Part shown: piece after piece, positions 15,374-44,900 of the stretch
How the letters are laid out: each line of letters opens with the position of its first letter
Numbering within the stretch: the stretch's first letter is position 1
NCBI RefSeq assembly: GCF_000737325.1
Contig: NZ_CP011125.1
Coordinates: 4,712,001-4,776,000, forward strand
Reading direction: 5' to 3'
DNA from: Sandaracinus amylolyticus
GTDB lineage: Bacteria; Myxococcota_A; Polyangia; Polyangiales; Sandaracinaceae
DNA: 64,000 nt
Translations under genes and position numbers: made by a program
The notes under the pieces: generated by a model
Databases searched by the model: none
The model's input: the letters and a program-made list of their open reading frames with translations, nothing else
Told to the model about the DNA's origin: nothing

Positions 15374-15538
15374 CGCACCGCCGGGCGCGTCGATCGCTCG
15401 CAGTGCGAGCTCGGTGTCGCGGCTGGAGCGTGGCAGACGGCGTGCCCGGGTTCGTGGGGCCTCGGTCCACGACGGCGGGCGCGCGAGAAGGACGATGCGC
15501 CGCACGTGCGGCGCGTCGTCGCGCCACACGCAAAGACG

Positions 15539-17119
<1,581 letters not shown>

Positions 17120-28828: not shown

Positions 28829-30769
28829 TCAGATGGGCTCGTTGATCGACTCGAGGTCGAGGCCGCCCGGGTACATGTAGCTCGTGTACTGGCCGAACCC
28901 GTACACGACGATGCCGAACTCCTGCGAGCTCGTGATCGTGTGCGCGCCGCCGGTGATCTCGACGCGCGCCACGCCGAAGCCGGTGCCGCCGACCGGGAGG
29001 AACCCGAGCACGTTCGTGCCGTCGAGCGTCACGGTCGCGCCCATCGGCGCGGTGACGTTCACGAAGCTGCGCACGTAGGTGCTCGGCGCGAGGAACGTGT
29101 ACTCGGTGCGGTACTGATCGGTCGGGATCGCGAGCGACATCGACGGATCGCCCACGTCGCCGATCGATGCGTTGATGCCCGGGTAGTTCTGGCCGACGAG
29201 GAACTGCGCGACGCTGATCGCCTCGGTGCCCGACACGCGGAAGCTCTGGCGCGCCTCGAACTCGACGGTCTGACCGCGGTTCAGCGTGACCGCCGCGTGC
29301 GTCGAAGCGGGATCGAAGGTGATCATGTTCCCGTCGCGCGCGGACATGATGCGGACGACGTTCGGCTCGTTCATCAGCGGCTGCGTGATCGAGACGATCG
29401 CCTCGCGTCCCCACGCCTCCTCGGGGAAGAGCGCTTCCTCGAGGTGATCGCACGCCCAGCGGTTCGCGGGCATGAACGCGCAGTTGTGGCCGCCGTACAC
29501 CGCGACGCGGCCGCCGGTCGCGCGGATCTCGGTGCCGGTGAGATCGTACTCGGCGCCGACCGTGCAGTACTCGACGCGGCGTCCCGCGAGCACCGAGCCC
29601 TGCATGTCCGCGGCGCCGAACGGCGTGCACGACGCGGGGCGCGAGGCGACGAGCTGCAGCACGTCACCCGCGTTGAGCGTGAACATGCCGGTCTGGCCGG
29701 GCGTGAACGCCTGGACCATCCCGTCGGTCGACGCGCGCACGTGCGCGCTGAACGTGATCGACACCTCGGTCGCGGCATCCGAGGCGCCGACGATCGTGAG
29801 GAACCCGGGGCTCTGTCCTTCCTGCGGCGTGCCCTCGGTGCCGAAGTTGATCGGCGTGATCCGCATGTGACGCGTGGCGACCGAGGTCACGAGGTAGTTG
29901 CCGGTCAGCGCGTGCGTCGGCAGGAGCAGCGACGCGTCGTTGGTGAACGAGAAGCACTGCCCGTCGCCGAAGCCGTCGTCGAGCGGCGACTCGTCGGCGC
30001 AGTCGCGCGCGATGCGGTACTCGAGCGGGTTGAACTGGTAGACCGTCACCGGCAGCGACGAGCGCAGGCGGTACGCCGCGCCGCGGAGGAGCGTCGACTC
30101 CTCGATCTGATCGGTCTGCGAGAACTGCTGCTTGAGCTCGGTGACCCACGGCAGCTCGATCGTCTGCACCGCGCCGGGCGCGACGGTCACCGTGCGGACC
30201 ATCGCGGTGCCGCGCGTGACCGTGACCTGTGCGGCGCTCGACTGCGGGTTCGCGACGACGACGGCGAACGGGAAGTCGGACGCGACCTGCGAGTTCAGCG
30301 TCGTGACCGGCCAGTACTCGCAGCCGATGTACGAGTTCGCGGCCTCGGCGTCGGCGCACGGTGAGCTGCACGTCACGCTGGTCGCGTTGCACACGAGGCC
30401 CGCCGAGGCGTCGCACGTCTCGACGACGTCGTAGCCCGAGCCGTCGGGCCGGCAGCGCTGCAGCGTGTCGCCGTCGCACATGCCGCGGTTGGGAAGGCAG
30501 GCGACGCAGCCCATTCCGGGCGCGCACGTGCCACCCGTCTCGCTGCAGTTGCGCCGTCCGGACTCCGTGCCGTCCGGATTGCAGCTGACCTCCTCGGCCC
30601 CGAGGCAGATCCGAGCCGGACCACCGGCGGTGCACGGCGTCGCGCCTTGGCCGTCCGGTGGCGTCATCCCGCCGTCACGTGGCCTGCCTCCGCCACCCAC
30701 CGGCTCGGTGCACCCCACGGACACGATCAGCGAGCACGAGACGAACGAGAACAGAAGTGAAGAACGCAT
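28829..30769 (-). CDS. IgGFc-binding-like surface lipoprotein
   Basis: 646 residues from the ATG at 30769; an earlier in-frame ATG at 30841 would add a non-signal stretch. The N-terminus is a lipoprotein signal (lipobox VSVGC). A Gly/Pro spacer is followed by Cys-rich repeats (~40-140), e.g. CLGAEEVSCNPDG and CLPNRGMCDGDTLQRC. The rest is a long beta-rich domain of the IgGFc-binding type: NSQVASDFPFAVVVANP, YQFNPLEYRIARDC, SLLLPTHALTGNYLV, GGHNCAF. It is a probable surface adhesin or matrix protein. It converges with the methyltransferase and lies 105 bases downstream of the nucleotidyltransferase gene. Confidence 0.82.
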   Translation of the reverse strand: MRSSLLFSFVSCSLIVSVGCTEPVGGGGRPRDGGMTPPDGQGATPCTAGGPARICLGAEEVSCNPDGTESGRRNCSETGGTCAPGMGCVACLPNRGMCDGDTLQRCRPDGSGYDVVETCDASAGLVCNATSVTCSSPCADAEAANSYIGCEYWPVTTLNSQVASDFPFAVVVANPQSSAAQVTVTRGTAMVRTVTVAPGAVQTIELPWVTELKQQFSQTDQIEESTLLRGAAYRLRSSLPVTVYQFNPLEYRIARDCADESPLDDGFGDGQCFSFTNDASLLLPTHALTGNYLVTSVATRHMRITPINFGTEGTPQEGQSPGFLTIVGASDAATEVSITFSAHVRASTDGMVQAFTPGQTGMFTLNAGDVLQLVASRPASCTPFGAADMQGSVLAGRRVEYCTVGAEYDLTGTEIRATGGRVAVYGGHNCAFMPANRWACDHLEEALFPEEAWGREAIVSITQPLMNEPNVVRIMSARDGNMITFDPASTHAAVTLNRGQTVEFEARQSFRVSGTEAISVAQFLVGQNYPGINASIGDVGDPSMSLAIPTDQYRTEYTFLAPSTYVRSFVNVTAPMGATVTLDGTNVLGFLPVGGTGFGVARVEITGGAHTITSSQEFGIVVYGFGQYTSYMYPGGLDLESINEPI

Positions 30770-30874
30770 TGAGCCCCCACGCGTCGAGTCGGGGGACGCT
30801 AATGGGGACGTCCACTCCGACGCAACCACAGAGACTGCCATCGCTCACGCAATCGGCACCAGTGGGGGCATTCG

Positions 30875-31860: not shown

Positions 31861-32784
31861 GTGCGTTGGCTCGCTCGGAGCTCGATCCTCCTCCTGCTGG
31901 TGCTCGTCCAGCCTGGTTGCGGAGACGACGACGGCGCCGTCCCGACGGACGCCGGGCTGATGGACGCGGCGTTTCCGCGCGACGCTGCGTCGCCGACGGA
32001 TGCAGCGCCCGCTGGCGATGCGAGCGATCACGACGGCGGCGCGGATCCCGCCGAGTGCACGTCGGACGAGGACTGCTCGAACGCCGACGTGTGCGACGGA
32101 ATCGAGCGCTGCGTCGACGAGGCATGCGTGCCGGGCGCCCAGCTCGGATGCTTCGACGGCGCCGAGTGCAGCTTCGACCTCTGCGAACCGTCGAGCGGCT
32201 GTGCGATGGTCGCGCCCGACACCGACGCGGACGGCGCGGACGACTGCAACGACTGCGCACCTGCCGATCCCGACGTGCGCCCGGGCGCGCTCGACGTCTG
32301 CAACGACCGCGACGACGACTGCGACCTCGCGATCGACGAAGACGGCATCGACGTGTACTTCGCCGACTGCGACGACGATGGCCACGCGCCGCGCGACGCG
32401 ACGACGTACACCGGCTGCGCTGCGCCCGATCCGGCGACGACCGGCTGCGGCGCTGCCGGCGCGGCGTGGATCACGAACGCGCCGAGCGACCCGTCGTACG
32501 ACTGCGACGACACCGACGCGCGCGCTCACTCGGGCCAGTCGGAGCTGTTCGCGTCGCCGCTGCTCCGGCACGTGACCGGCCTCGAGTTCGACTTCGACTG
32601 CGACGGCAGGATCACGTTCGAGAGCACGGCATCCGGGGAGTGCGCGAGCGTCGGGACCGGCTGCGAGCACACGCCCGGCTGGGCCACCGGCGTGCCCGTG
32701 TGCGGCGCGGAGGGCTCGTTCGTCGTGGGCTGCGACGCGGCATGCGGCGAGCGCCTGGAGATGCGTGTGCAGCGATGTCGCTGA
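31861..32784 (+). CDS. MopE-like Cys/Asp-rich lipoprotein (paralogue 1)
   Basis: 307 residues from a GTG at 31861. The N-terminal signal ends with lipobox QPGC. An Asp/Ala-rich spacer (~25-65) leads to Cys-rich repeats: CTSDEDCSNADVCDGIERC, then DADGADDCNDCAPADPDVRPGA (split here as DADGADDC, NDCAPADPD) and NDRDDDCDLAIDE. These are the putative metal-binding (MopE) motif, a likely Ca2+ or copper binder. The C-terminal ~75 residues (FDFDCDG to RVQRC) are shared with the paralogue at 35127. It is secreted and surface-attached. It starts a set of lipoproteins around the peptide-modification genes. Confidence 0.82.
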   Translation: MRWLARSSILLLLVLVQPGCGDDDGAVPTDAGLMDAAFPRDAASPTDAAPAGDASDHDGGADPAECTSDEDCSNADVCDGIERCVDEACVPGAQLGCFDGAECSFDLCEPSSGCAMVAPDTDADGADDCNDCAPADPDVRPGALDVCNDRDDDCDLAIDEDGIDVYFADCDDDGHAPRDATTYTGCAAPDPATTGCGAAGAAWITNAPSDPSYDCDDTDARAHSGQSELFASPLLRHVTGLEFDFDCDGRITFESTASGECASVGTGCEHTPGWATGVPVCGAEGSFVVGCDAACGERLEMRVQRCR

Positions 32785-32896
32785 CTTCCCTGCGACGGTG
32801 TGAGCAGATTCGTCGCTCGGCACTGGATCCGGCGTAGCTCCCGTGCTTCCCTGATGGGGAGCTCGAATCGGCGGGATTCGCGCTCGGGAGGCCGTG

Positions 32897-35041
32897 ATGT
32901 CGGGGCGACCGGAGCAGCGTGGACGGAAGAATGGCTGGTGGCTGCGCGCGTCGAGCGCTGCGTTGCTCGTCGGATGCTTCGGCGCTCCCGACGCGGGGGA
33001 CCCAACGATCGACCCGCCCGTCGCGCCGCTGCCAGTCGTCGCGCTGATCGAGGGTGAGTACGACGGTCACGAGCTCACGTTCCGCACGCTCGAGCTCGAC
33101 GAAAGCGAGCAGCTCGACGGCGTGGTCACGGCGCCGCTCGTCGACATCCCTTCGCGCTCGTGCACCACCGCGACGTGCACCGGCGGAAGCTACGTCGCGT
33201 TCTCCAACGTCGCGGGTGGCCGTGCGACGGTCACTCACGGCACGGCGGTCGGCACGTGGGACCCCACGCTCTGCGGTGCCGCCCCCGTGAGCCCGACGTC
33301 CGGCGTGTGCCAGCAGGTCCGGCTCCGGAACCTCTACGCGACGCAGATCGAGCGCGCGTACGCCGAGCTGATCTCGATCACGCCGACCGGTGCGACGACC
33401 AGCGTCAGCGTGCCCGCGCAGCCGTTCGCGGCGGTCCCCGATTTCTCGCTCGCGCCTGCGGTCAGCAACGGTCTCTGGCGCTTCGGAGAGATCGGGCGCA
33501 ACGGCACCGCGACCACGAGCCCGACGACGCACTGGGTCTTCCACGGTGCGACGCCGCCGGGAACGGAGCTCACGTTCCGCTTCCTCGTGCAGGTGCGCGG
33601 GCACCTGGTGTCCCCGACGCGTCGCGCGAGCGTCGTCGGGAACGACGACCCCGCGACGGACTATCCGGCGCGCACCGCTGGCGCGACGGTCGGCGCATCG
33701 TCGATCGACATGTCCGCGGACGGCCGCTACGTCGTGTACACGACCGCGTCTTCGTCGCTGCACGGCCAGACGGGCGGTCAGTACGTCGTCCGCCACGACA
33801 TGACGACGGGCGAGAGCGCTGTCGTCGAGCGCATCGACGGGACCGACACGATCGCGACCGGCTGCACGTCGACGAACCCGAGCATCTCCGATGATGGGAA
33901 TCGCATCGCGTTCGAGAGCTCGGGCTGCGATCTCGTCGGGCTGGGCGCGACGAGCACGACCCAGGTCTACGTGCGCGACGTCGCCGCGCGGACGACCACG
34001 CTCGCGAGCGCCGACACCGCAGGTGGGTACGCGAACCAGGCTGCGACGAGCGCGCAAATCAGCGGGAACGGCCAGGTCGTGGTATTCCAGAGCAACGCGT
34101 TCGATCTCGTGGCGGGCACGCCCGCGTTCGAGTTCTTCGGGTTCCCGCTGTTCCGTCTGTGCGTCGACGCGTATCGCCGCGACCTCGCCGGGGGGACCAC
34201 GACGCACGTGAGCGGACGCGCGGGCACGGCGCCCAACGCGGTCGCCGGATTCGCCGGCTGGGATGCCGCGAACGCCGGCGAAGCGCCCGACGTGAGCGCG
34301 GATGGAAGCGCCGTGGTCTTCCGCGGCTCGTGGGCGACCCTCGTGACGGGCGACACCAACAACGCGTCGGACGTCTACGTCTACCGCCACGGCGGCGCGA
34401 CGACGAACGTCCATCGCGTCAGCCTCCGCCACAACAACACGCAGCTCAGTGCAGCGTCGGATCACCCGTCGATCTCCGCGGACGGCGCGTTCATCGCGTT
34501 CTCGTCGCTCGCGACGAACGTCTCGACGGGGACGCCGACGACGAGCGGCACTCGCCACGTCTATCGCCGCTCGTCGGCGAGCGGCGCGACGGCGAGTCGG
34601 ACCGTCGAGCGCGTGACGGTGAGCCCGACCGAGGTGAACGGGACGGGTCCGTCGTTCGCGTCGCCGTGGCCGTCGCTCTCCCGCAACGGCCGCTTCGTCG
34701 GGTTCTGGAGCAGCTACACGAACCTCGCGTCGACGAGCTCGTTCCTCGTGAGCGGTACGCAGTACTACGTCTGCGACATGGGCTCGGCGGCGATCGAGCT
34801 CGAGCGTTGTTTCGTCGCGAGCACGTTCCAGCCGACGGCGACGAGCGCTTTCAGCATCCTCGGCGGTGCCACGGTCGGCGCGGGGCGCACCGCGATGGCG
34901 TGCGGCGACGAGGAGGAGGCCTGCTACGTCGCGTATCAGACCAATGGTGCCGGCTGGGCCGCCGTCGCGACGAGCGACCTCCAGGTGTTCGTGAGCCCGG
35001 TGAGCGATCCCCGCGCGCAGCTGCCCGCGCCCTCGCGCTGA
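32897..35041 (+). CDS. PD40 beta-propeller lipoprotein with novel N-terminal domain (paralogue A)
   Basis: 714 residues; the ATG at 32897 has GGGAGG 8 bases upstream. A GTG one codon earlier is possible. The signal peptide ends in lipobox LLVGC. Residues ~45-250 are a domain I do not recognise, shared with the paralogue at 38682: LVDIPS, CTGG, YVAFSNVAG, ERAYAEL, FRFGE and FTFRFLVQVRG-like elements. Residues ~260-710 hold WD40/PD40 blades: DMSADGRYVVYTTASSS, SISDDGNRIAFESSG, QISGNGQVVVFQSNA, DVSADGSAVVFRGS, SISADGAFIAFSSLA. The protein is outer-surface or periplasmic. Its role in the peptide cluster is unknown, but the same type is repeated in it. Confidence 0.82.
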   Translation: MSGRPEQRGRKNGWWLRASSAALLVGCFGAPDAGDPTIDPPVAPLPVVALIEGEYDGHELTFRTLELDESEQLDGVVTAPLVDIPSRSCTTATCTGGSYVAFSNVAGGRATVTHGTAVGTWDPTLCGAAPVSPTSGVCQQVRLRNLYATQIERAYAELISITPTGATTSVSVPAQPFAAVPDFSLAPAVSNGLWRFGEIGRNGTATTSPTTHWVFHGATPPGTELTFRFLVQVRGHLVSPTRRASVVGNDDPATDYPARTAGATVGASSIDMSADGRYVVYTTASSSLHGQTGGQYVVRHDMTTGESAVVERIDGTDTIATGCTSTNPSISDDGNRIAFESSGCDLVGLGATSTTQVYVRDVAARTTTLASADTAGGYANQAATSAQISGNGQVVVFQSNAFDLVAGTPAFEFFGFPLFRLCVDAYRRDLAGGTTTHVSGRAGTAPNAVAGFAGWDAANAGEAPDVSADGSAVVFRGSWATLVTGDTNNASDVYVYRHGGATTNVHRVSLRHNNTQLSAASDHPSISADGAFIAFSSLATNVSTGTPTTSGTRHVYRRSSASGATASRTVERVTVSPTEVNGTGPSFASPWPSLSRNGRFVGFWSSYTNLASTSSFLVSGTQYYVCDMGSAAIELERCFVASTFQPTATSAFSILGGATVGAGRTAMACGDEEEACYVAYQTNGAGWAAVATSDLQVFVSPVSDPRAQLPAPSR

Positions 35042-35126: not shown

Positions 35127-36086
35127 ATGTCGATCCGCACGCCAATCGTTCTCGCCGCGCTTCTCGCTCTCATCGCCGGCTGTGGAGACGACGACGCGCC
35201 CGCCACGCCCGACGGAGGGGCGGACGCCGGCGCGGTCGACGCCGCGCTCCCCCTCGACTCGGGTCCCGTCGACGCGGGATCCGACGACGCAGGCCCCAGC
35301 GACGGCGGGGGCACGGACAGCGGCTTCGACGGCGGCCCCTTCGACGGCGGCGGCTTCTGCACGACGGACGCCGAGTGCCAGAACGCCGATCGCTGCGATG
35401 GTGAGGAGCAGTGCGTCGACGGGATGTGCGCACCGTCCGAAGCGCCTCTGACGTGCGACGACCTCATGGACTGCACGACCGACAGCTGCGACGCAGCCAC
35501 GGGATGCGTCTACACGCCCGTCGACGGTGACGGCGACGGCGACGGCGCGTGCACCGACTGCAACGACGCAGACCCGCTGCGCCACTCGGGTGCGACCGAG
35601 GCGTGCGACGCCGAGGACAACGACTGTGACGACGCGATCGACGAGATGCTCACCGGCACGTTCTATCCCGACTGCGACGGCGACGGCTGGGCCGTGGAGT
35701 CCGCGCCGAGCGTCGATGGCTGCACCGCCCCGACGCCGGGTGCGACCGGCTGCACGACCGCCTCGCCCGTGTGGACGTCGCGGCCGCCGCAGTTCGACGA
35801 TTTCGACTGCGCCGATGGCGACACGCGAGCGCACACGGGGGTGACCGGGTTCTTCACGACGCCGGCGGTCGACGGGATCGTCGCGTTCGACTTCGACTGC
35901 GACTACAGCGAGACGCCGCAGTACGAAGCTCAGGGCTCGTGCGTCGGCTCGGCCGGAGCGTGCACCACGACGACGGGCTGGCAGTCCGCGACCGTTCCCG
36001 CGTGCGGCGCGTCGGCGGCGTTCATCGCGAGCTGCTCGGCGGCGTGTGCGCCGGTGATCGAGACGCGCACGCAGGGCTGCCGCTGA
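35127..36086 (+). CDS. MopE-like Cys/Asp-rich lipoprotein (paralogue 2), overlapping B2 gene
   Basis: 319 residues; ATG at 35127 with GGGAGG upstream. Lipobox IAGC, then a DAG/DGG spacer. Cys-rich part: CTTDAECQNADRCDGEEQC, then DGDGDGACTDCNDADP and EDNDCDDAIDE. The last repeats match the MopE metal-binding motif. The C-terminal domain (FDFDCDYSE to TQGCR) is paralogous to that of the gene at 31861. The stop overlaps the possible start of the lasso-B2-like gene, so this lipoprotein appears coupled to peptide processing, an unusual arrangement. Confidence 0.82.
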   Translation: MSIRTPIVLAALLALIAGCGDDDAPATPDGGADAGAVDAALPLDSGPVDAGSDDAGPSDGGGTDSGFDGGPFDGGGFCTTDAECQNADRCDGEEQCVDGMCAPSEAPLTCDDLMDCTTDSCDAATGCVYTPVDGDGDGDGACTDCNDADPLRHSGATEACDAEDNDCDDAIDEMLTGTFYPDCDGDGWAVESAPSVDGCTAPTPGATGCTTASPVWTSRPPQFDDFDCADGDTRAHTGVTGFFTTPAVDGIVAFDFDCDYSETPQYEAQGSCVGSAGACTTTTGWQSATVPACGASAAFIASCSAACAPVIETRTQGCR

Positions 36087-36118
36087 TCGCGAAGGCCGTC
36101 CGGCGCGCCCGGTGCGCA

Positions 36119-36487
36119 GTGCGCTACGTCGCGCTGCGCATCGAGCTCGCGCACCGCTACCGCTCGGACCCGCTCGACGCGCTGCTCACCTCGCTCGATG
36201 GCTCGTCGCGACGCGTGCCCGCGACGCGAGAAGACGTCGCAGAAGCCATCAGGCTCGGAGAGCGGGTCGCGCGCCACTGGCCGGTCGGGTCGGACACGTG
36301 CCTCTTCCGAGCGCTCGCGCGGTACGCGCTGCTCCACGAAGCGGGGCACGCGCCGCGTTTCGTGATGGGGATCGACGAGGACGACGTCGCGAAAGGCCAC
36401 GCGTGGGTCGAGCTCGCAGGCGTGCCGTTCCTCGAGCCTCGATCACCGCGCTTCCGGCGCACGCTCGAGCACCCGCCGCGCGCGTGA
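36119..36487 (+). CDS. Lasso peptide biosynthesis B2-like protein (transglutaminase-like leader peptidase)
   Basis: 122 residues from the GTG at 36119. Alternatively, a CTG at 36083 overlapping the MopE-like stop would add 12 residues, giving 134. The conserved PF13471 features are present: Cys nucleophile in DTCLFRALARYALL (C61), the GHAPRFVMG strand, and the catalytic His in GHAWVELAG (H94). In lasso peptide pathways the B2 protein cuts the leader off the precursor with help from a B1/PqqD-like chaperone. Its 3' end overlaps the convergent nucleotidyltransferase gene by 45 bases. No lasso cyclase is nearby, so its substrate may not be a lasso peptide. Start uncertain, family assignment good. 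Confidence 0.85.
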   Translation: MRYVALRIELAHRYRSDPLDALLTSLDGSSRRVPATREDVAEAIRLGERVARHWPVGSDTCLFRALARYALLHEAGHAPRFVMGIDEDDVAKGHAWVELAGVPFLEPRSPRFRRTLEHPPRA

Positions 36488-37294
36488 CGCGAGACCCCGC
36501 GCGAGATGCGCGCCGAGCGAGCGCATGCCTGCGGGGAGCGAACGATTGAGCGCGTGGAGCGCGGGCACGGCGAGCGGCGCGTTGCCCGCGTGCGTCGCGA
36601 GCCAGAGCTCGGCGCTGCGTGCGACCAGCGCGCCCACGCGATCTCGGGGCAGCCTGGAGAGGACGTGCGCGGCGAACTCGTCGCCGCGGCGTGATGCAAG
36701 CGTAAGCGCGTACCGCGCCGCGCGCGCGAGCCCCCGCTCGAGGAGGTGCGACGCGACGTCGTCGGGCCGCATCGGGAGCGCGCGCGCGACGACCGCGAAG
36801 TCGCGTAGATGTCGCCGGTCGTGCGCGTTCGACCGGTTCCGCGCGAAGTGCGCCACGAGATGCGCGTAGAAGTCGTGGCGCTCGAGCATCCGGACCGGCC
36901 GTCCGAAGAGCGAGGACGCATCCGCCGCGCGCTCGACGAGATCGTCCGTATCGAGACGGAAGAGCTCGGGCTCGACCAGCGCCGTGTGGAGATCGAGGTC
37001 GAGCCGGAGATCTCTCGCGCGCAGCGTGGTCGCGACGGGGGAGCGCGCGATCTCTTCGAGCCCCGCGGCCGCGAGCGCGCGCTCCGCGACTCGCCGGTCG
37101 CGAGGCCTGACGAGGATGTCGACGTCCGACATCGGGCGCGGGGGCGCGCCCGATCCTTCCGAGAGCGCGGAGAGCACGACGCCCTTCAGAGCGACCGGCA
37201 CGACGCCCACGACCGAGAGCGCGTCGGCGGCGCGCGCAAGGAGCTCGCGGCCCGCGACCACGGTCATCGCCGCAGCGATTTCGCGCTCGTCCAT
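36443..37294 (-). CDS. Nucleotidyltransferase family protein (NTP_transf_5), RiPP-cluster type
   Basis: 283 residues from the ATG at 37294. The family motif is RPMSDVDILVRP (Asp-x-Asp metal site) preceded by VVPVALKGVVL. A helical, Arg-rich remainder follows. PF14907 proteins are uncharacterised as far as I know, but they recur in lasso-peptide and PqqD-type peptide clusters together with HprK-like kinases, B2 proteins and PqqD, all of which are present here. It may add a nucleotide to the peptide or another protein. It is divergent from the precursor gene across ~54 bases and convergent with the B2 gene. Confidence 0.82.
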   Translation of the reverse strand: MDEREIAAAMTVVAGRELLARAADALSVVGVVPVALKGVVLSALSEGSGAPPRPMSDVDILVRPRDRRVAERALAAAGLEEIARSPVATTLRARDLRLDLDLHTALVEPELFRLDTDDLVERAADASSLFGRPVRMLERHDFYAHLVAHFARNRSNAHDRRHLRDFAVVARALPMRPDDVASHLLERGLARAARYALTLASRRGDEFAAHVLSRLPRDRVGALVARSAELWLATHAGNAPLAVPALHALNRSLPAGMRSLGAHLARGLASRARRVLERAPEAR

Positions 37295-37310
37295 CGAACG
37301 ATTGCCTCTC

Positions 37311-37339
37311 TTGACACAACTACGGGGTCCATGCAGAAC
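37311..37339 (+). promoter_or_regulatory. Candidate promoter for the precursor peptide gene
   Basis: TTGACA (37311-37316, a perfect -35) is followed after 17 bases by CAGAAC (37334-37339, three matches to -10). TTGACA is rare in such GC-rich DNA. It would start transcription near 37346, about at the ATG at 37349, so the transcript would be almost leaderless. That makes the -10 assignment doubtful. Confidence 0.25.
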
Positions 37340-37348
37340 GGGGCGACG

Positions 37349-37522
37349 ATGCGCGAGGGGAAGAAGGCGGAGGAGCGCCGCGCGGCGCAGGACGCCCAGG
37401 CTCAGCCGACCGGTCGCAGGGCGTACGAGTCGCCGCGGATCGAGCGCCGCATTCCGATCGCTTCGAACACGCTGCAACCGACCTCGGGCACCGAGGACAT
37501 CTTCGGTCCCGGCGAGGAGTGA
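37349..37522 (+). CDS. Candidate RiPP precursor peptide (57 residues)
   Basis: 57 residues from the ATG at 37349; an ATG at 37331 would give 63. It is charged and hydrophilic, has no Cys, and has no membrane segment. Residues 26-31 read Y-E-S-P-R-I, matching the YxxPxL leader element read by PqqD-type chaperones in lasso systems, with Ile for Leu. Fifteen residues after the Tyr is Thr41, the position of the Thr two before the core in the consensus YxxPxLxxxGxxxxxT. That would give a 15-residue core, QPTSGTEDIFGPGEE, with Glu7 and Asp8. The consensus Gly is replaced by Ile35. It sits four bases ahead of the radical SAM gene and diverges from a PF14907 gene. The Gly-free start (Gln1) and missing cyclase argue against a standard lasso peptide. 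Confidence 0.55.
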   Translation: MREGKKAEERRAAQDAQAQPTGRRAYESPRIERRIPIASNTLQPTSGTEDIFGPGEE

Positions 37523-37526
37523 GCGG

Positions 37527-38579
37527 GTGCAGCGCGTCGGGCTGCACCTGACGGACCGCTGCCAGCTCGACTGCGATCACTGCCTGCGTGACCCGGGCGC
37601 GCAGCCGGTCGACCTTCCGTTGTCGACGATCGCGGCCGTGCTCGCCGAGGCCGCCTCCGAGTTCGGGATCCGGCACGTCTCGCTGACGGGCGGCGAGCCG
37701 ACGTTGCACCCCGAGCTCCCCGCGATCCTCGATCTCGCGGTCGCGTACGGCATGCGCTGGGACATGGTCTCGAACGGCCGCCGATTCGACCGTGTCGCCT
37801 GCTGGCTCGACGAAGTGCCGGCGCGACGAGATGCGTGTCGGTGGATCGCGTTGAGCCTCGATGGCGCCAGCGACGCCACGCACGACTCTCTCCGCGGCGC
37901 CGGGCAGCGACGCGAGGTGCTGAGCGCAGCGTCCGTCGCCGTCGCGCTCGGCGTGCCGTTCGGGATCACGACCACGGTCCACGCGCGAAACGTCGACGAG
38001 CTCGAGGCGATCGCCGAAGAGGCCGAGGCGCTCGGTGCCGGATGGGTCCGATTCGGCGCGATGCAGGCGACCGGCACACCGCTCGACGACGAGCTTCGCC
38101 TCGAGCCGGACGAGTGGCGCATCGTGGACGCGCGGGTGCGAGCGCTGCGCGCGCGCCGGTCCATCCCCGTGCTGACGACCACGGGTTGGCCGTCGGCGGA
38201 CGAGCCCGGCGCACTGTGCGGTCCGCTCCGCGGTGACACCCTGCACGTCGACGTGCACGGCCGGCTGACGCTCTGCTGCCTGCACTCCCAGGTCCCGCAC
38301 CAGGGTGTCGATCCGAGCGTCGCCGGCGACGTCGCGAGTGGGCTGCGCCTCGTCCGTGGAGCGCTCGCCGAGATCCAACGGAAAGCGATCCTCGCTCGCG
38401 CCGCGGATGACGATGCGGGCCCTTGGCGCCACCACGCCTGCAACTCGTGCCTGCGGCGGTTCGGCCGCCCTCACTGGTCGGTCGATGGCCGTGATGGACC
38501 GTCCGCCGAGCGGCCACGTTGGCGGGGTGCGCTACACCGCGTCAGGAGCGCGAAGCGCTCGCTTCCGGTGGCGCGCTGA
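37527..38579 (+). CDS. Radical SAM enzyme with SPASM-like C-terminal Cys motifs
   Basis: 350 residues from a GTG at 37527. Cluster motif: CQLDCDHC (C12, C16, C19), followed by TGGEPTLHPEL (SAM-binding). The fold continues with SLDGASDATHDS. The C-terminal part has further Cys residues: C231 (ALCGPL), C250-C251 (LTLCCLHS), C305 and C308 (ACNSCLRRF). These resemble the auxiliary-cluster ligands of SPASM/Twitch enzymes that modify peptides. It lies 4 bases after the candidate precursor, so it is likely to act on that peptide. The reaction cannot be told from the sequence. Length and motifs are typical of peptide-modifying radical SAM proteins. Confidence 0.85.
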   Translation: MQRVGLHLTDRCQLDCDHCLRDPGAQPVDLPLSTIAAVLAEAASEFGIRHVSLTGGEPTLHPELPAILDLAVAYGMRWDMVSNGRRFDRVACWLDEVPARRDACRWIALSLDGASDATHDSLRGAGQRREVLSAASVAVALGVPFGITTTVHARNVDELEAIAEEAEALGAGWVRFGAMQATGTPLDDELRLEPDEWRIVDARVRALRARRSIPVLTTTGWPSADEPGALCGPLRGDTLHVDVHGRLTLCCLHSQVPHQGVDPSVAGDVASGLRLVRGALAEIQRKAILARAADDDAGPWRHHACNSCLRRFGRPHWSVDGRDGPSAERPRWRGALHRVRSAKRSLPVAR

Positions 38580-38626
38580 GCACGCGCGCAGGCCGGGAAC
38601 ACCCTGCATCGAATTTTCTGTGAACG

Positions 38627-38635
38627 TGTTATGCT
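38627..38635 (+). promoter_or_regulatory. Candidate extended -10 promoter before the second PD40 gene
   Basis: TGTTATGCT is an extended -10 (TG-n-TATGCT) in an unusually AT-rich stretch (38610-38635). No good -35 is seen. The transcript would begin near 38642, 40 bases before the ATG at 38682, leaving room for the GGAGGGAGA ribosome site. It would drive the PD40, PqqD and HprK-like genes separately from the radical SAM gene. Confidence 0.35.
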
Positions 38636-38681
38636 GGCGTGCAACTGGGGTTGGGTACCGGAGCGCCGGAGGGAGAATCGC

Positions 38682-40733
38682 ATGCAACGTCACTCGTCGT
38701 GTCGCGCAGTCGCCGTGATCCTCGCGCTCGTCGGGCTTCCCGCCGGGCTCGTCGCGTGTGCGCCCGACGGAGCGGAGCCGACCCTGCCAGCCCCGGTCGA
38801 GGTCGACGACCTGCCGGTCATCCAGCTCATCGAAGGTGAGTTCGACGGCGAGGAGCTCAGCTATCGCTTCCTGACGCCGGATGGCCGCGTCGACGCGGAC
38901 CCCATCGTGGGCGTCGCGGCGGAGCCGCTGGTCGACATCCCGTCCCAGTCGTGCACGACCACGTCTTGCACTGGCGGCGGCTACGTCGCGTTCTCGAACG
39001 TCGCGGGCCAGCGCGCGACGGTGATCAACGGCACGGTGACGTCGGGCTCGTGGGTCGCCGCGTGCGGCAGCCCGCCGACGGGCTCGCTCTCGGGGATCTG
39101 TCAGGGTGTGCGCCTGCGGAACCTCTACCCGGGCCAGCAGATCGAGCGCGCGTACGCCGAGCTCATCGAGCTCACGCCGAACGGCACCACGACGTCGGTC
39201 GAGATCGTCCCCAACGGGGCGCAGATCGCGACGCCGGACTTCGGCTTCGGCGAGCCGACCATCCCCAACGGGCTGTTCCGTTTCGGCGAGCTCGGTCGTG
39301 GGAGCAGCTCGATCGCGAACAGCGTCACGATGCGGTGGGCGTTCCGTGGCACGACGACCGGCACGGAGTTCACGTTCCGCTTCCTGGTGCAGGTGCGCGG
39401 GCTCCTCGTGACGCCGACGGTGCGCGCGAGCCTCAGCAACGGAGTGCGCGACAATCCTGGTGCGGGCGCCTACCCCTCGAACGCCGCGATCATCCCGACC
39501 GCTGGCCGTCCGATCGCGCTCTCCGCGAACGGCCAGTACGCCGCGTACGTCGTCGGTGCGATCGTCCATCGCAAGGACCTGAGCACCGGCTCGCTGTCGA
39601 CCTTCGACGCCGGCTGCAGCGTGCTGAACCTCGACCTCTCGGACGATGGCGCGGTGCTGGCGTACGAGGCGGCCGGGTGCCTCGGACTGTCGCAGATCTA
39701 CCGCTACGACTACGGTGTGGGAGGTACGCCTACACTGATTTCGACCGCGACGGGCGGCGGCGCGGGCAACCAGGCAAGCCGGCTCCCGCGGCTCAACAGC
39801 GATGGCACGGTCCTCGTGTTCCAGAGCCAGGCACGCAACCTCGCGGGCCAGACCGTCCCGAACGGTCGCGGGTGCCCGGACGTCTACCGTTACGACTCGA
39901 CGACCGGCGAGATCCATCACGTGAGCGCGATCCGGGGCTCGGACTTCTACGCGCCGACGACGGCGCGCTACGCGCCGTGCGCCGCGACCGGCGATAGCGT
40001 TCGCTTCGCGGACGTGAGCGACGACGGACAGCGCATCGTGTTCGTCGGTGGTGGGCGGCTCGATCCGGCCGCGGACACCGACGCGGCGCCCGACGTGTAC
40101 GTCTACGACCACAGCGAGTCGCTGACCGGCTCGGTCGTCGTGTACCCGGTCACGCCGGCCGTGACCGCGCCGTCGCACACCGCGATCTCCGGCGACGGCT
40201 CGGTCGTGGCGTTCTGCACGGACAGCTGTGGGCGTGTCGTGCGCGCGAGCTCGGCCGAGGGTGTCGGCGGGCTCGAGGTCGTGACCGCGAACCCGAGCGG
40301 GACCGCGGTGACTGCGGGCCCGAACACCTACGGCATCCCGACGCTCTCGCCGAGCGGCCGCTTCGTGGCCTTCCGCGGGAACGCCACCGCGGGTCTGGTT
40401 CCGCCGCAGAGCTGGTCCGGCTTCAGCGCGCCGGGGACGCAGATCTACGTCTGCGATACCGGGGCGCCGATCGCGACGCCCGCGGCGAACGACCTTCGCC
40501 GCTGTTGGGTGGCGAGCACGATTCAGCTGATGCCCGACACCGCGTTCGTTCCGCTCGCCGGTGCGGTTCAGAGCGGCGATCAGCGCCTCGGCCTCTCGTA
40601 CCCGAGCGACACCGAGGCGGGCTACGTCGCCTACTACGCGACGCCGACGAATTGGGGCCCGCTGAGCACGAGCGGCCTGTTCGTCAGCCCGGTCGGAGAT
40701 CCCCGCCCCCAGCAGCCCGTCGACGCGCGCTGA
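38682..40733 (+). CDS. PD40 beta-propeller lipoprotein with novel N-terminal domain (paralogue B)
   Basis: 683 residues; ATG at 38682 with GGAGGGAGA ribosome site. Signal peptide with lipobox LVAC. Residues ~40-245 match the unrecognised domain of the paralogue at 32897 (LVDIPSQSC, CTGGGYVAFSNVAG, NLYPGQQIERAYAELIELTP, FRFGELGR, GTEFTFRFLVQVRG). Propeller blades follow: DLSDDGAVLAYEAAG, RLNSDGTVLVFQSQA, DVSDDGQRIVFVGGG, AISGDGSVVAFCTDS, TLSPSGRFVAFRGN. It is one base ahead of the PqqD gene, so it is part of the same operon as the maturation genes. A role as receptor, immunity protein or substrate-holding protein is possible, none shown. Confidence 0.85.
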   Translation: MQRHSSCRAVAVILALVGLPAGLVACAPDGAEPTLPAPVEVDDLPVIQLIEGEFDGEELSYRFLTPDGRVDADPIVGVAAEPLVDIPSQSCTTTSCTGGGYVAFSNVAGQRATVINGTVTSGSWVAACGSPPTGSLSGICQGVRLRNLYPGQQIERAYAELIELTPNGTTTSVEIVPNGAQIATPDFGFGEPTIPNGLFRFGELGRGSSSIANSVTMRWAFRGTTTGTEFTFRFLVQVRGLLVTPTVRASLSNGVRDNPGAGAYPSNAAIIPTAGRPIALSANGQYAAYVVGAIVHRKDLSTGSLSTFDAGCSVLNLDLSDDGAVLAYEAAGCLGLSQIYRYDYGVGGTPTLISTATGGGAGNQASRLPRLNSDGTVLVFQSQARNLAGQTVPNGRGCPDVYRYDSTTGEIHHVSAIRGSDFYAPTTARYAPCAATGDSVRFADVSDDGQRIVFVGGGRLDPAADTDAAPDVYVYDHSESLTGSVVVYPVTPAVTAPSHTAISGDGSVVAFCTDSCGRVVRASSAEGVGGLEVVTANPSGTAVTAGPNTYGIPTLSPSGRFVAFRGNATAGLVPPQSWSGFSAPGTQIYVCDTGAPIATPAANDLRRCWVASTIQLMPDTAFVPLAGAVQSGDQRLGLSYPSDTEAGYVAYYATPTNWGPLSTSGLFVSPVGDPRPQQPVDAR

Positions 40734-40734
40734 C

Positions 40735-41019
40735 GTGACCCGCCGCTGGCGCGCCTCGACGCGCGCGATCCACACGAAGCTGCCGCGAGGTGGGGTCGTC
40801 CTCGACCCTGCCTCGAAGGCGTACTTCACGCTGAACGAGACGGGCGAGGCGCTGTGGTCCGCGCTGAGCGCGCCCGCGACGCTCGAGGAGCTCGCGAGCA
40901 TGCTGGCCCGCGAGTTCGAAGTGGGCTTCGAGACTGCACGCACGGATGTCGAGAGCTGGCTCGCGGAGCTGCACGAGCTCGGACTGATCGACGTCGTCGG
41001 CTCGGATGTCGCGGGGTGA
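40735..41019 (+). CDS. PqqD family peptide-binding chaperone (copy 1)
   Basis: 94 residues from a GTG at 40735, one base after the PD40 stop. The PqqD fold is indicated by VVLDPASKAYFTLNETGEALWSAL, a beta-strand/helix pattern (read as LDPASKAYFTLNETG and ALWSAL), followed by ATLEELASMLAREF and the helical tail VESWLAELHELGLI. PqqD proteins bind precursor leaders and present them to modifying enzymes (RiPP recognition element). Here the partner is probably the radical SAM enzyme or the B2 peptidase. It overlaps the kinase gene by 14 bases. Confidence 0.88.
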   Translation: MTRRWRASTRAIHTKLPRGGVVLDPASKAYFTLNETGEALWSALSAPATLEELASMLAREFEVGFETARTDVESWLAELHELGLIDVVGSDVAG

Positions 41020-41926
41020 AGCTCGCCTCGGCGCGCTGAGCGTCGCGTGGGACGTGCCCGACGCGCTCCCGGGCGCGACGGGCGGGCTCGAACATCTGCC
41101 CGCCACGACGCGCTCCGATGACGTCGCGACGTTTCCGTGGATCGTGGACCGAGGCCCGGTCGGCATCGCGCCCGAGCGTTACGCGGCGTTCTACGGCCCT
41201 GTCCGCCTCGTCTTCGAGCCCTTCGACGCAGTGCGCGTGTGGAGCCCGAGCGCCGATCTGCGGGTCACGCCGAAAGGACTGCGTGGCCGCGCAGAGGGAC
41301 CGTGCGCGCTCGCAGCATCGATTGCACTGCACGTGGTGGCTGCACACGGCGGGCTCGCTCACGCCCACGCGGCCGTCGTGTGCCTCGACGGAGCGACGTT
41401 GCTCATGCCGGGCGGGTCGGGATCGGGGAAGACGAGCGCGGCGCTCGCGGTCGCTCGCGGAGGCGGCGTGCTGGTGTGCGACGACGCCGCGTACGTCGAT
41501 GTGGACCGCGTCGTGTGGCCCGTCCGGCGCCCTCCTCACGTCAGCGACACGACGCTCGCGGCGCATCCCGATCTCGATGTCCTCGGGGCCGTCTTCGATG
41601 GGAGCGTCTCCAAGTTCCGCGCACGGCTTCCGGACCCGCGCGACGCACCGCCCGCGCGGATCGACGCGGTCGTGCTGCCGACGATCGATCGAGGCGCGAG
41701 GACTTCCATCGAGCCCGTCGAGGCAGCTGCCGTCTTCGCGACGCTGCTCGGATCGAGCGCGCTCGCGGTGGTGCCTGGGGCGCCGCATCGCGACGCGATG
41801 ATCGATATCCTCGCGGACCTCGCGGCAGTCCCTGCCGCGCGACTCGTCGCCGGCCCGGACGCCCTCCTCGATCCGCTGGTGATCGCGCGCGCGCTGCGGG
41901 CGTGGCTCGCTACGCGTCCTCGCTGA
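41006..41926 (+). CDS. HprK-related kinase of RiPP/PqqD clusters
   Basis: 306 residues from the ATG at 41006, overlapping the PqqD gene by 14 bases. The C-terminal half is an HPr kinase-like P-loop domain: Walker A GGSGSGKT (~136-143), preceded by a His-rich strand LAHAHAAVV, then VCDDAAYV, and a DPRD-type region. The N-terminal half is beta-rich and variable. Homologues in paeninodin-type lasso clusters phosphorylate a C-terminal Ser of the peptide, and TIGR HprK-related kinase A/B systems pair with PqqD. Here the candidate peptide ends in Glu-Glu, so its target may differ. Its 3' end overlaps the convergent second PqqD gene by 17 bases. Confidence 0.85.
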   Translation: MSRGEARLGALSVAWDVPDALPGATGGLEHLPATTRSDDVATFPWIVDRGPVGIAPERYAAFYGPVRLVFEPFDAVRVWSPSADLRVTPKGLRGRAEGPCALAASIALHVVAAHGGLAHAHAAVVCLDGATLLMPGGSGSGKTSAALAVARGGGVLVCDDAAYVDVDRVVWPVRRPPHVSDTTLAAHPDLDVLGAVFDGSVSKFRARLPDPRDAPPARIDAVVLPTIDRGARTSIEPVEAAAVFATLLGSSALAVVPGAPHRDAMIDILADLAAVPAARLVAGPDALLDPLVIARALRAWLATRPR

Positions 41927-42182
41927 GCACTCGTTCGCGCACGAGGTCGAGAACGAACGCGCGGACGTCGCGACGCACGACCTCACGGTCCGCGTCGAGC
42001 TCGCTCGCCACGACCTCGACGATCTCACCGAGCGTGCGCCCGTCGGCGAGCTCGACGACGCGCGCGCCCACCTCGTTGAGCACGCGCGTCTCGAGACCGG
42101 GCAGCGTGACGACCACCATGCGGCCAGCGACGCGGCGCGCGACGGCGCGGGCGGCAAGCCTGAGCTTCGCGTGCTCGTTCAT
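41910..42182 (-). CDS. PqqD family peptide-binding chaperone (copy 2)
   Basis: 90 residues from the ATG at 42182. It shows a PqqD-like pattern: a basic first strand, MVVVTLPGLETRVLNEVGARVVELADG (read as VVVTLPG and VLNEVGARVVELADG), then TLGEIVEVVASELD and a helical end. It is only weakly similar to copy 1 by eye. It overlaps the ABC exporter stop by four bases (ATGA) on the minus strand, so the pair is probably an export module that presents the peptide to the transporter. Alternatively it could act with a gene outside the window. Confidence 0.8.
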   Translation of the reverse strand: MNEHAKLRLAARAVARRVAGRMVVVTLPGLETRVLNEVGARVVELADGRTLGEIVEVVASELDADREVVRRDVRAFVLDLVRERVLSEDA

Positions 42183-43882
42183 GCGCTCGTCGCCTCGCGG
42201 CCGCGCTCGTCCAGCGTCGCTCCATCATCGCCGGGAACGACTTCGACGATGCGATCGCACGCGCCCAGGAGCGCTGCGCGATGCGTCGCGACCAGCACCG
42301 TGCATCGACCGGAAGACTCGCGCAGCAACGCCGCGATCTCACGCTCGAGCGCGACGTCGAGCGCCGACGTCGGCTCGTCGAGCACGAGCAAGCTCGGCTC
42401 GGCGGCGAGCGCGCGAGCGAGCGCGACGCGCTGACGTTCACCGCTCGAGAGCCCCTCCCCTCCCTCGCCGAGCACGCGGTCGAGGCCCCGCGTGACGACG
42501 CTCGACGCTCGGGCGCGTGCGAGCGCGTCGAGCAGCGCGTCGTCTGCGATGTCCGAGCTTCCGTACGCGACGTTCTCGCGGAGGGTCCCAGCGAACAGCA
42601 GCGGCTCGGCGGTGACGAGCCCGAGTCGTCCGCCGCGGCCAGCCCACAGCGCGGGCGCCGCACCATCGATGGACACCCGCCCTTGCGAGGGCTCGATCAC
42701 ACCGAGCAACGTGCGCAGCAGCGTCGTCTTGCCGATGCCGCTCGGGCCGACGAGCGCGACGACCTGTCCAGGCGCGACCTGGAGGCTGACGTCGCGCAGC
42801 ACCACACGTTCGCCGATCTCGACCCGTACGGACTCCAGCGAGAGCGCGCACGGCGGGCTGCTCGCTCGGTGCGACGGTGTGGCTCCCGCCGTCTCGAGCG
42901 GCACCTCGCGAGCGATCTCCTCCAGCGCCGGGCCCGCCGCGGACAACGCGCCGATCGCGTGGCCGGCGGCGGTCAGCGACGACGCGAGCCGCACGAGCGC
43001 ATACAGCATCGCGACGAGGTCCGGCAGCGCGACACCCGACACGAGCCCGAGGCTGGCGAGCACGCCGATCGCCAAGAGCGCCGGCAGCAGCGGCGACGCG
43101 CTGGCGAGCGCGCTCGCTGCCGCCACGCGCCGCTGTTCGTCCGCGTGCGCGTCGACTTCGCGTGCGAGCCGCGCGCGCTCGATCGATACGGTCCTGAGCG
43201 CCCGGATCTCCCACGCGCGTCGCGTCGCGCGCTCGAGCGTCGCCGCGATGCGGCGCTGCGCCGGCGCGAGCCCGCGCGCGATGCGGCGCACGCGGCGCGC
43301 GAGCACCGCCGCGATCGCCCCACTCGCCGCGAGGACGCCGATCATCGCGAGCCCGACCGACGGTGCCTTCGCGATGACGAGCGCACCGAGACACACGGCT
43401 TGGACCGACCACGCGACCAACCCAACGGATGCCTGCCGTGCCTGTGCCGCGCGAGGCACGCGCTCGACCCATCGCGAGAGCACGTCGGTCGCGGGCTCGA
43501 GACCGCGAGCATCGGCACGCAACGCCACGTCCAGGCCCACTCGTCGCAGCGCGCGCGACGCCTCGATCGCGCTCGTCCCGGTGAGGTGGTGGATCGCGAT
43601 CCCCACGCAGGCTCTCGCCGCCGCCGCCACACCGAGCGCGAGCGCGATCGTCCAGAGCTCGGCGATCGACGCTGCGTCCTCCGAGGCGCCCCGCGCGAGC
43701 CCGGCGAATGCCAGCGCGAGCCCGATCTCCGCCGCGGCGCCGAGCGCGCCGAGCGCGCCAGCGCGCGCCCATTCGCCACGCGCCCCACCGAGCCGTCGCA
43801 GCGTCGCGAACGTCGTTCCGATGCTCACACGCGCCCTCTCGGCTCTCCGACGAACTCCCTCGACCGCATTCGCAGAGGACAT
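42179..43882 (-). CDS. ABC transporter, fused membrane and ATPase domains
   Basis: 567 residues from the ATG at 43882. The first ~310 residues form about six membrane helices (GWARAGALGALGAAAEIGLALAFAG etc., seen as Ala/Leu runs). The last ~210 residues are the ATPase: Walker A GPSGIGKT, signature LSSGERQRVALARAL, Walker B LLVLDEPTSALD, and the H-loop His in VATHRAAL. It is half-size and would act as a homodimer. It overlaps a PqqD gene, so it is probably the exporter of the peptide product. No N-terminal peptidase domain is seen. It diverges from the sugar-nucleotide gene at 43933 across 50 bases. Confidence 0.9.
   Translation of the reverse strand: MSSANAVEGVRRRAERARVSIGTTFATLRRLGGARGEWARAGALGALGAAAEIGLALAFAGLARGASEDAASIAELWTIALALGVAAAARACVGIAIHHLTGTSAIEASRALRRVGLDVALRADARGLEPATDVLSRWVERVPRAAQARQASVGLVAWSVQAVCLGALVIAKAPSVGLAMIGVLAASGAIAAVLARRVRRIARGLAPAQRRIAATLERATRRAWEIRALRTVSIERARLAREVDAHADEQRRVAAASALASASPLLPALLAIGVLASLGLVSGVALPDLVAMLYALVRLASSLTAAGHAIGALSAAGPALEEIAREVPLETAGATPSHRASSPPCALSLESVRVEIGERVVLRDVSLQVAPGQVVALVGPSGIGKTTLLRTLLGVIEPSQGRVSIDGAAPALWAGRGGRLGLVTAEPLLFAGTLRENVAYGSSDIADDALLDALARARASSVVTRGLDRVLGEGGEGLSSGERQRVALARALAAEPSLLVLDEPTSALDVALEREIAALLRESSGRCTVLVATHRAALLGACDRIVEVVPGDDGATLDERGREATSA

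Positions 43883-43932: not shown

Positions 43933-44900
<968 letters not shown>

Follow-up and report, generated by a model that had tools for sequence, protein, structure and literature searches.

A lasso-type leader-processing gene set associated with a radical SAM enzyme instead of a lasso cyclase: a probable peptide-modification pathway in Sandaracinus amylolyticus and other bacteria

The leaders of lasso peptide precursors carry the motif YxxPxL at positions -17 to -12 (PMC10368454) and a Thr at position -2 (PMC10368454; PMC10885120), and the kinases of lasso clusters share a His-Lys-Asp-Asp motif (PMC9266682). BsfK, BsfB1 and BsfB2 provide a precedent for a kinase, a B1 and a B2 protein acting on one precursor (PMC10368454). 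In addition, about 300 discrete lasso-type recognition elements (RREs) of ribosomally synthesised and post-translationally modified peptides (RiPPs) have been reported to co-occur with radical S-adenosylmethionine (SAM) enzymes; the consulted sections of the RRE-Finder paper treat them as spurious matches of the lasso model and do not describe a B2 protein, a kinase and a lasso-type leader beside them without a cyclase (PMC7470986). Here we describe a locus of Sandaracinus amylolyticus (Myxococcota, Polyangiales, Sandaracinaceae), in a window of 64,000 nucleotides (positions 4712001-4776000 of a genome of one contig, 10,327,335 bases). It probably encodes, with a probability that we put at about 0.78, a RiPP pathway that takes over the leader-handling half of lasso biosynthesis and has a radical SAM enzyme, in place of the lasso cyclase, at its centre, the product being modified by this enzyme and probably phosphorylated. 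The combination of lasso-type B1, B2 and kinase with a radical SAM enzyme is apparently new: no description of the four together was found in the literature searched, most subscription journals being outside its scope.

An earlier note on this DNA had named a B2 protease, an NTP_transf_5 protein, a candidate precursor, a radical SAM enzyme, two PqqD-like proteins, an HprK-like kinase and an ATP-binding cassette (ABC) exporter. Profile searches found them all, essentially where it had placed them. The features on which the argument is built are the following (positions in the window):

36119-36487, plus strand: B2-type leader peptidase (C96 / Transglut_core3; PF13471, 58 bits; NF033537 lasso_biosyn_B2, 46.9 bits against a cut-off of 33)
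36443-37294, minus strand: NTP_transf_5 protein (PF14907, 87 bits)
37349-37522, plus strand: precursor peptide of 57 residues, a small open reading frame (ORF) directly 5' of the radical SAM gene that recurs at orthologous loci
37424-37441, plus strand: leader motif YESPRI, a YxxPxL of lasso type spanning positions -17 to -12 (alignment of 30 precursors)
37469-37471, plus strand: leader Thr(-2), predicted determinant of B2 cleavage, conserved in 25 of 30
37475-37519, plus strand: predicted core peptide QPTSGTEDIFGPGEE, its position deduced from Thr(-2)
37527-38579, plus strand: radical SAM maturase (PF04055, 70 bits), with CxxxCxxC and C-terminal Cys231, Cys250, Cys251, Cys305 and Cys308
40735-41019, plus strand: B1-type RRE of the PqqD family (PF05402, 67 bits)
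41006-41926, plus strand: HprK-like peptide kinase, HprK-related and below family cut-offs, with P-loop and catalytic motif
42179-43882, minus strand: ABC exporter (permease-ATPase; PF00005, 103 bits)

The radical SAM gene has an orthologue in 26 of the 183 genomes of the order, and in all 26 a B2 gene (NF033537) lies on the same contig, at about 5 kb or nearer. This orthologue group is well separated, with near-full-length matches at about 227-790 bits and the next matches at 77 bits or less; split genes and pieces at contig ends score below the former range. Radical SAM enzyme, B2, PqqD and HprK occur together in nearly all the loci retrieved, and since their association with the precursor recurs in dozens of genomes, it exceeds chance. 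The module is also present in Myxococcota outside the order, and the radical SAM gene occurs in 11 of the 75 Brocadia-class genomes (anammox Brocadiae) and in 7 of 297 Acidobacteriota genomes, in both groups mostly with the same partners; at least three phyla are thus represented. In Brocadiae the operon runs precursor, HprK, radical SAM, PqqD, B2, NTP_transf_5, and the architecture is the same in Acidobacteriota; NTP_transf_5 homologues are found at the loci of both groups. ABC matches were found at 16 of 28 Polyangiales loci. Moreover, in a tree of B2 proteins the 42 members linked to a radical SAM gene form nearly one group (2 label changes, against 11.9 after shuffling, with weak deep support). 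It is reasonably likely that these loci represent an undescribed class of RiPPs, present at least in Myxococcota, Planctomycetota (anammox Brocadiae) and Acidobacteriota. In this class the radical SAM enzyme would have the lasso module (B1, B2, kinase and, in many cases, NTP_transf_5) as its conserved partner, and the cores mostly lack Cys and always lack Trp and Lys. Such an undescribed family of modified peptides is the most likely reading because the lasso machinery for leader recognition, cutting and phosphorylation is kept, and the place of the ring-closing enzyme is taken by a radical SAM enzyme.

Two observations on related loci can be added. One anammox contig carries two equal-scoring radical SAM copies near its two ends (L239 and L240, genome G524), which may be an assembly overlap. 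Three other Polyangiales loci (L207, L208 and L210) carry PqqD-B2-HprK cassettes with neither a cyclase nor this radical SAM gene nearby; their B2 proteins form a group of their own, and the cassettes may employ the B1/B2 module in a third way.

No family of Pfam or NCBIfam covers the precursor. At 26 of 30 loci, the 400 bp upstream of the radical SAM gene contain a small ORF that carries the lasso leader motif. As controls, 3 of 492 random stretches have one, and the opposite strand has one at 0 of the 30 loci; together with conservation, these controls rule out a chance small ORF. The exceptions are L196-L198 (Myxococcota), where a whole-locus scan finds the precursor elsewhere in the locus on the same strand, and L084, with a leader variant carrying Thr at -12. 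At L196-L198 the radical SAM gene directly follows a beta-propeller-like gene. Precursor counts from a loose pattern in stop-to-stop frames err in both directions (L069 is missed though its precursor is present), and the counts used here are those of the aligned set and of the whole-locus scan. When the 30 precursors are aligned on their Tyr/Phe, the spacing is exactly that of lasso leaders: Tyr or Phe at -17 (30/30), Pro at -14 (30/30), Leu, Ile or Val at -12 (29/30), Thr at -2 (25/30) and Leu at -1 (27/30). Among 28 non-redundant peptides, Thr(-2) is observed 23 times for 3.3 expected, a count reached in 0 of 10,000 shuffles. Three relatives' precursors also match NCBIfam lasso leader models, weakly and below cut-off. 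The window precursor and that of genome G181 share their last 32 residues, beginning with YESPRI; in this part three codons differ, all of them synonymously (small numbers), and the N-terminal parts have diverged.

As the earlier note claimed, the window contains no lasso cyclase. In the whole genome, PF00733 detects two full-length Asn_synthase (AsnB) proteins and, weakly, a MnmA-like gene. Both AsnB proteins remain far below the cut-off of the lasso cyclase model NF033535 (181 and 184 bits against 525) and pass TIGR01536 (459 and 427 against 267); from these matches they are of the asparagine-synthase/exopolysaccharide (EPS) amidotransferase type and not lasso cyclases. One of them, at 4783104, is apparently within a polysaccharide locus, and the other is at 2142099. 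With both models (PF00733 and NF033535), no lasso cyclase is found in this single-contig genome. None of the 183 genomes of the order exceeds the NF033535 cut-off, which is strict, so that real cyclases may be missed. Finally, no AsnB homologue is present at any of the radical SAM loci examined in Polyangiales, other Myxococcota, Brocadiae and Acidobacteriota, whereas among 16 B2 loci from this order that lack the radical SAM gene, about 10 have one beside B2, as expected for lasso clusters.

The predicted cores (n = 30) are 8-30 residues long, some having only 8-9 residues, and are strongly divergent between lineages: Brocadiae cores follow GFFxxFxP, some Acidobacteriota cores start with FFQ, and L072 carries a FTPMGPAMTGTTFMG-type set. 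Ser or Thr occupies position 2 in 26 of 30. The Asp or Glu at ring positions 7-9 that a lasso macrolactam requires is absent from 26 of 30 cores, the exceptions being those of the window, G181, L084 and L102. An ordinary lasso pathway, with its cyclase encoded elsewhere and the radical SAM enzyme acting in tailoring, would explain why leader, B1, B2, kinase, NTP_transf_5 and exporter are all lasso-like, and the window core does offer E7 and D8 for a ring. This explanation is nevertheless very improbable and already largely refuted by the cyclase-free single contig, by the result for the order under the strict cut-off, by the absence of AsnB from radical SAM loci when most control B2 loci have it, and by the cores, most of which lack the acidic residue and some of which are only 8-9 residues long. 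Of the two possibilities raised in the earlier note, a cyclase elsewhere is thus contradicted by the single-contig genome, and a different peptide modification gains support from the absence of a genomic cyclase, from the conserved cyclase-free gene set and from cores without a ring acceptor. The note had also proposed a search of the genome for an AsnB homologue and a comparison of synteny in relatives; because neither AsnB protein is a lasso cyclase and relatives have kept the gene set with no cyclase next to it, the two outcomes that it held against a distinct system were not obtained.

Catalytic residues are conserved in the B2 protein and the kinase. The B2 protein, which exceeds the threshold for lasso leader peptidases, has Cys61 and His94 invariant in its orthologues. 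The only other PF13471 match of the genome was rejected as a second B2, being a generic PF01841 transglutaminase. For the PqqD protein at 40735, the best NCBIfam model is lasso_PqqD_Strm (48.1 bits against a cut-off of 70), and the sequences of solved structure closest to it belong to lasso B1 proteins, including TbiB1 and TfuB1. In 23 kinase sequences, His121 (23/23), Lys142 (22/23), and Asp159 and Asp160 (23/23) are conserved, so that the HprK-like kinase displays the His-Lys-Asp-Asp motif of lasso-type peptide kinases.

The radical SAM enzyme has the cysteine pattern of SPASM/twitch enzymes (CxxxCxxC followed by a C-terminal CX9-15GX4C...CX2C). C12, C16 and C19 of the first motif, together with C231, G245, C250, C251, C305 and C308, are invariant in 20 orthologues, and the Cys set is kept across phyla. 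Because further Cys are missing, the enzyme resembles, from its sequence, one with a single-cluster twitch domain rather than a full SPASM domain, with Cys251 left free; the spacing C231-x18-C250-x54-C305-x2-C308 resembles the twitch pattern of BtrN. An AlphaFold2 (AF2) model (pLDDT 84, pTM 0.86) has as nearest folds SuiB (Z 25.8, root-mean-square deviation 2.9, 285 residues aligned), SkfB (24.2), BlsE (23.1), anSME (23.0), CteB (22.4) and PqqE (21.0); a likeness of this modelled fold does not give the reaction. The cores are more informative: Lys, Arg, His and Trp occur in none of the 30 and Cys in only three, and for this reason thioethers and Lys-Trp, Trp or His crosslinks, as far as predicted cores can tell, cannot be the family-wide product. 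Most known radical SAM peptide reactions being thereby excluded for the family as a whole, the enzyme may perform a less common chemistry. We weakly favour a Calpha/Cbeta-H reaction on aliphatic or hydroxy residues, because the invariant extra Cys251, beside a predicted cluster ligand, could donate a hydrogen atom. Epimerisation ranks first, if only tentatively, for this reaction; a carbon-carbon or ether crosslink is an alternative that we find slightly less likely.

The fold relation to PqqE raises the question of whether the mature product could be a small redox cofactor, like pyrroloquinoline quinone (PQQ) or mycofactocin, rather than an exported peptide. A discrete PqqD beside a radical SAM enzyme is indeed the PQQ arrangement, and short conserved cores such as that of Brocadiae would suit such a product. 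The enzyme scores 53.5 bits with the PqqE model (cut-off 381). We find a cofactor product quite unlikely: the cores differ strongly between lineages and lack Glu-Tyr or Val-Tyr pairs, exporters accompany more than half of the Polyangiales loci, and a kinase is present. Glu-Tyr or Val-Tyr pairs are typical of PqqA and MftA.

A known cassette combining radical SAM enzyme, PqqD and HprK (SynChlorMet, GeoRSP or HPr-rel-A), unusual here only through a nearby B2 gene, was also considered. The best NCBIfam model of the radical SAM enzyme is SynChlorMet ScmF (the ScmE/ScmF models give 72.6 and 62.3 bits, the former being ScmF), and PqqD narrowly clears the cut-off of TIGR04353, a model from the HPr-rel-A system (35.5 against 35). 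In addition, SynChlorMet-like cassettes with two radical SAM genes and PqqD exist among distant relatives, in Anaerolineae and other bacteria (L103, L107, L122 and L124). The scores of the radical SAM enzyme (cut-off 400) and of the kinase (27.9 against 200 for TIGR04352 of HPr-rel-A) are far under all cut-offs, as are those for ScmC (13.4 against 125) and ScmD (17.4 against 100). Moreover, there is one radical SAM gene here and not two, B2 is present at essentially every locus, and the B2 tree groups by radical SAM label. A known cassette is therefore unlikely.

Given the observed gene content, conservation, motif spacing, cyclase absence and conserved catalytic residues, and by analogy with the precedents named above, the pathway built around the radical SAM enzyme could proceed as follows. 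The B1-like PqqD (40735) would bind the 57-residue precursor through the YxxPxI leader motif, and the radical SAM enzyme (37527) would then modify the core. The HprK-like kinase (41006) would phosphorylate Ser/Thr of the core, and NTP_transf_5 may extend this phosphate. B2 (36119) would cut one residue after Thr(-2), giving a core of about 15 residues, which the ABC protein (42179) would export. Several points weigh against this proposal. The acidic pair of the window core could serve a lasso ring, and its position 2 is Pro, not Ser or Thr. The radical SAM and HprK proteins fall below every NCBIfam cut-off. L073, L252 and L253 have the radical SAM gene without B2, PqqD or HprK nearby. Finally, 33 of 39 B2 sequences have Glu 12 residues beyond the His, where Asp would be expected from McjB, and the third catalytic residue of B2 is unsure for that reason.

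The two lipoproteins previously reported amid the peptide genes are real. With a second PqqD-like protein, they make up the accessory features of the locus:

35127-36086, plus strand: MopE-like lipoprotein, accessory and lineage-specific (PF11617), otherwise seen in Sandaracinus-like loci only
38631-40733, plus strand: PD40 beta-propeller lipoprotein, accessory (PF07676), with homologues at 6 of 28 Polyangiales loci
41910-42182, minus strand: second PqqD-like protein (PF05402, 49 bits), with counterparts in Sandaracinus-like loci L069 and L093 only

These three genes are not core parts of the system because, outside the Sandaracinus lineage, only a few relatives have them. The presence of both lipoproteins inside the operon, and of PD40 homologues at some other loci, might suggest that the radical SAM enzyme and the kinase act on these secreted proteins and not on a small peptide. 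This is extremely improbable, as most loci lack them and the precursor is found at almost all loci that are not truncated. A second pair of MopE-like and PD40 beta-propeller genes, apparent paralogues of those at 35127 and 38631, lies just upstream (31861-35041), an arrangement that points to a tandem duplication split by the peptide genes.

On the other side, sugar-nucleotide genes, named from their sequences, start at 43933; this long sugar-nucleotide/polysaccharide region (43933-64000) adjoins the cluster and runs past the window to the EPS-type amidotransferase at 4783104. Elsewhere in the window, a secreted protein of this environmental myxobacterium has a full IgGFc_binding domain (PF17517, 230 bits; 28829-30841, minus strand), and one 2-kb block (14001-16000) has an AT skew of 0.315, far from the rest of the window.

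If the proposed pathway is correct, the B1/B2 pair, treated as diagnostic of lasso peptides, would be a general and portable module for leader removal, at work with a radical SAM maturase as well. Mining tools for which a lasso cyclase is obligatory would then overlook the family or dismiss it as a false positive. That anammox bacteria and myxobacteria share the operon also raises the question of the role of its product in such different cells.

Compared with described systems, the locus shares with the SynChlorMet cassette (TIGR04248-04251) the association of radical SAM, PqqD and HprK-related proteins, but that cassette has two radical SAM enzymes where this one has a single one; to our knowledge, it has no B2 and its precursor is of another kind. 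As in PqqE/PqqD and streptosactin StsB/StsC, a radical SAM enzyme with C-terminal cluster-binding Cys and a stand-alone PqqD-like RRE lie beside a short precursor. Unlike in those systems, the cores mostly lack the Cys, Tyr or Trp used there, and the scores are far under the cut-offs of those families; we know of no B2 protease or kinase in either. The closest likeness in leader handling is to the phosphorylated lasso clusters (paeninodin pade, pseudomycoidin psm and Bradymonas bsf), which have the YxxPxL leader with Thr(-2) at the same spacing (Ile in bsf), discrete B1 and B2, an HprK-like kinase with His-Lys-Asp-Asp, an NTP_transf gene and an ABC exporter. The differences are a radical SAM enzyme here and no lasso cyclase, cores that mostly cannot form a macrolactam, and no conserved C-terminal Ser. 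Because the cyclase is missing, and the ring acceptor is absent from most of the orthologous cores, the locus does not belong to the lasso pathways, although it would work like the leader-handling half of one.

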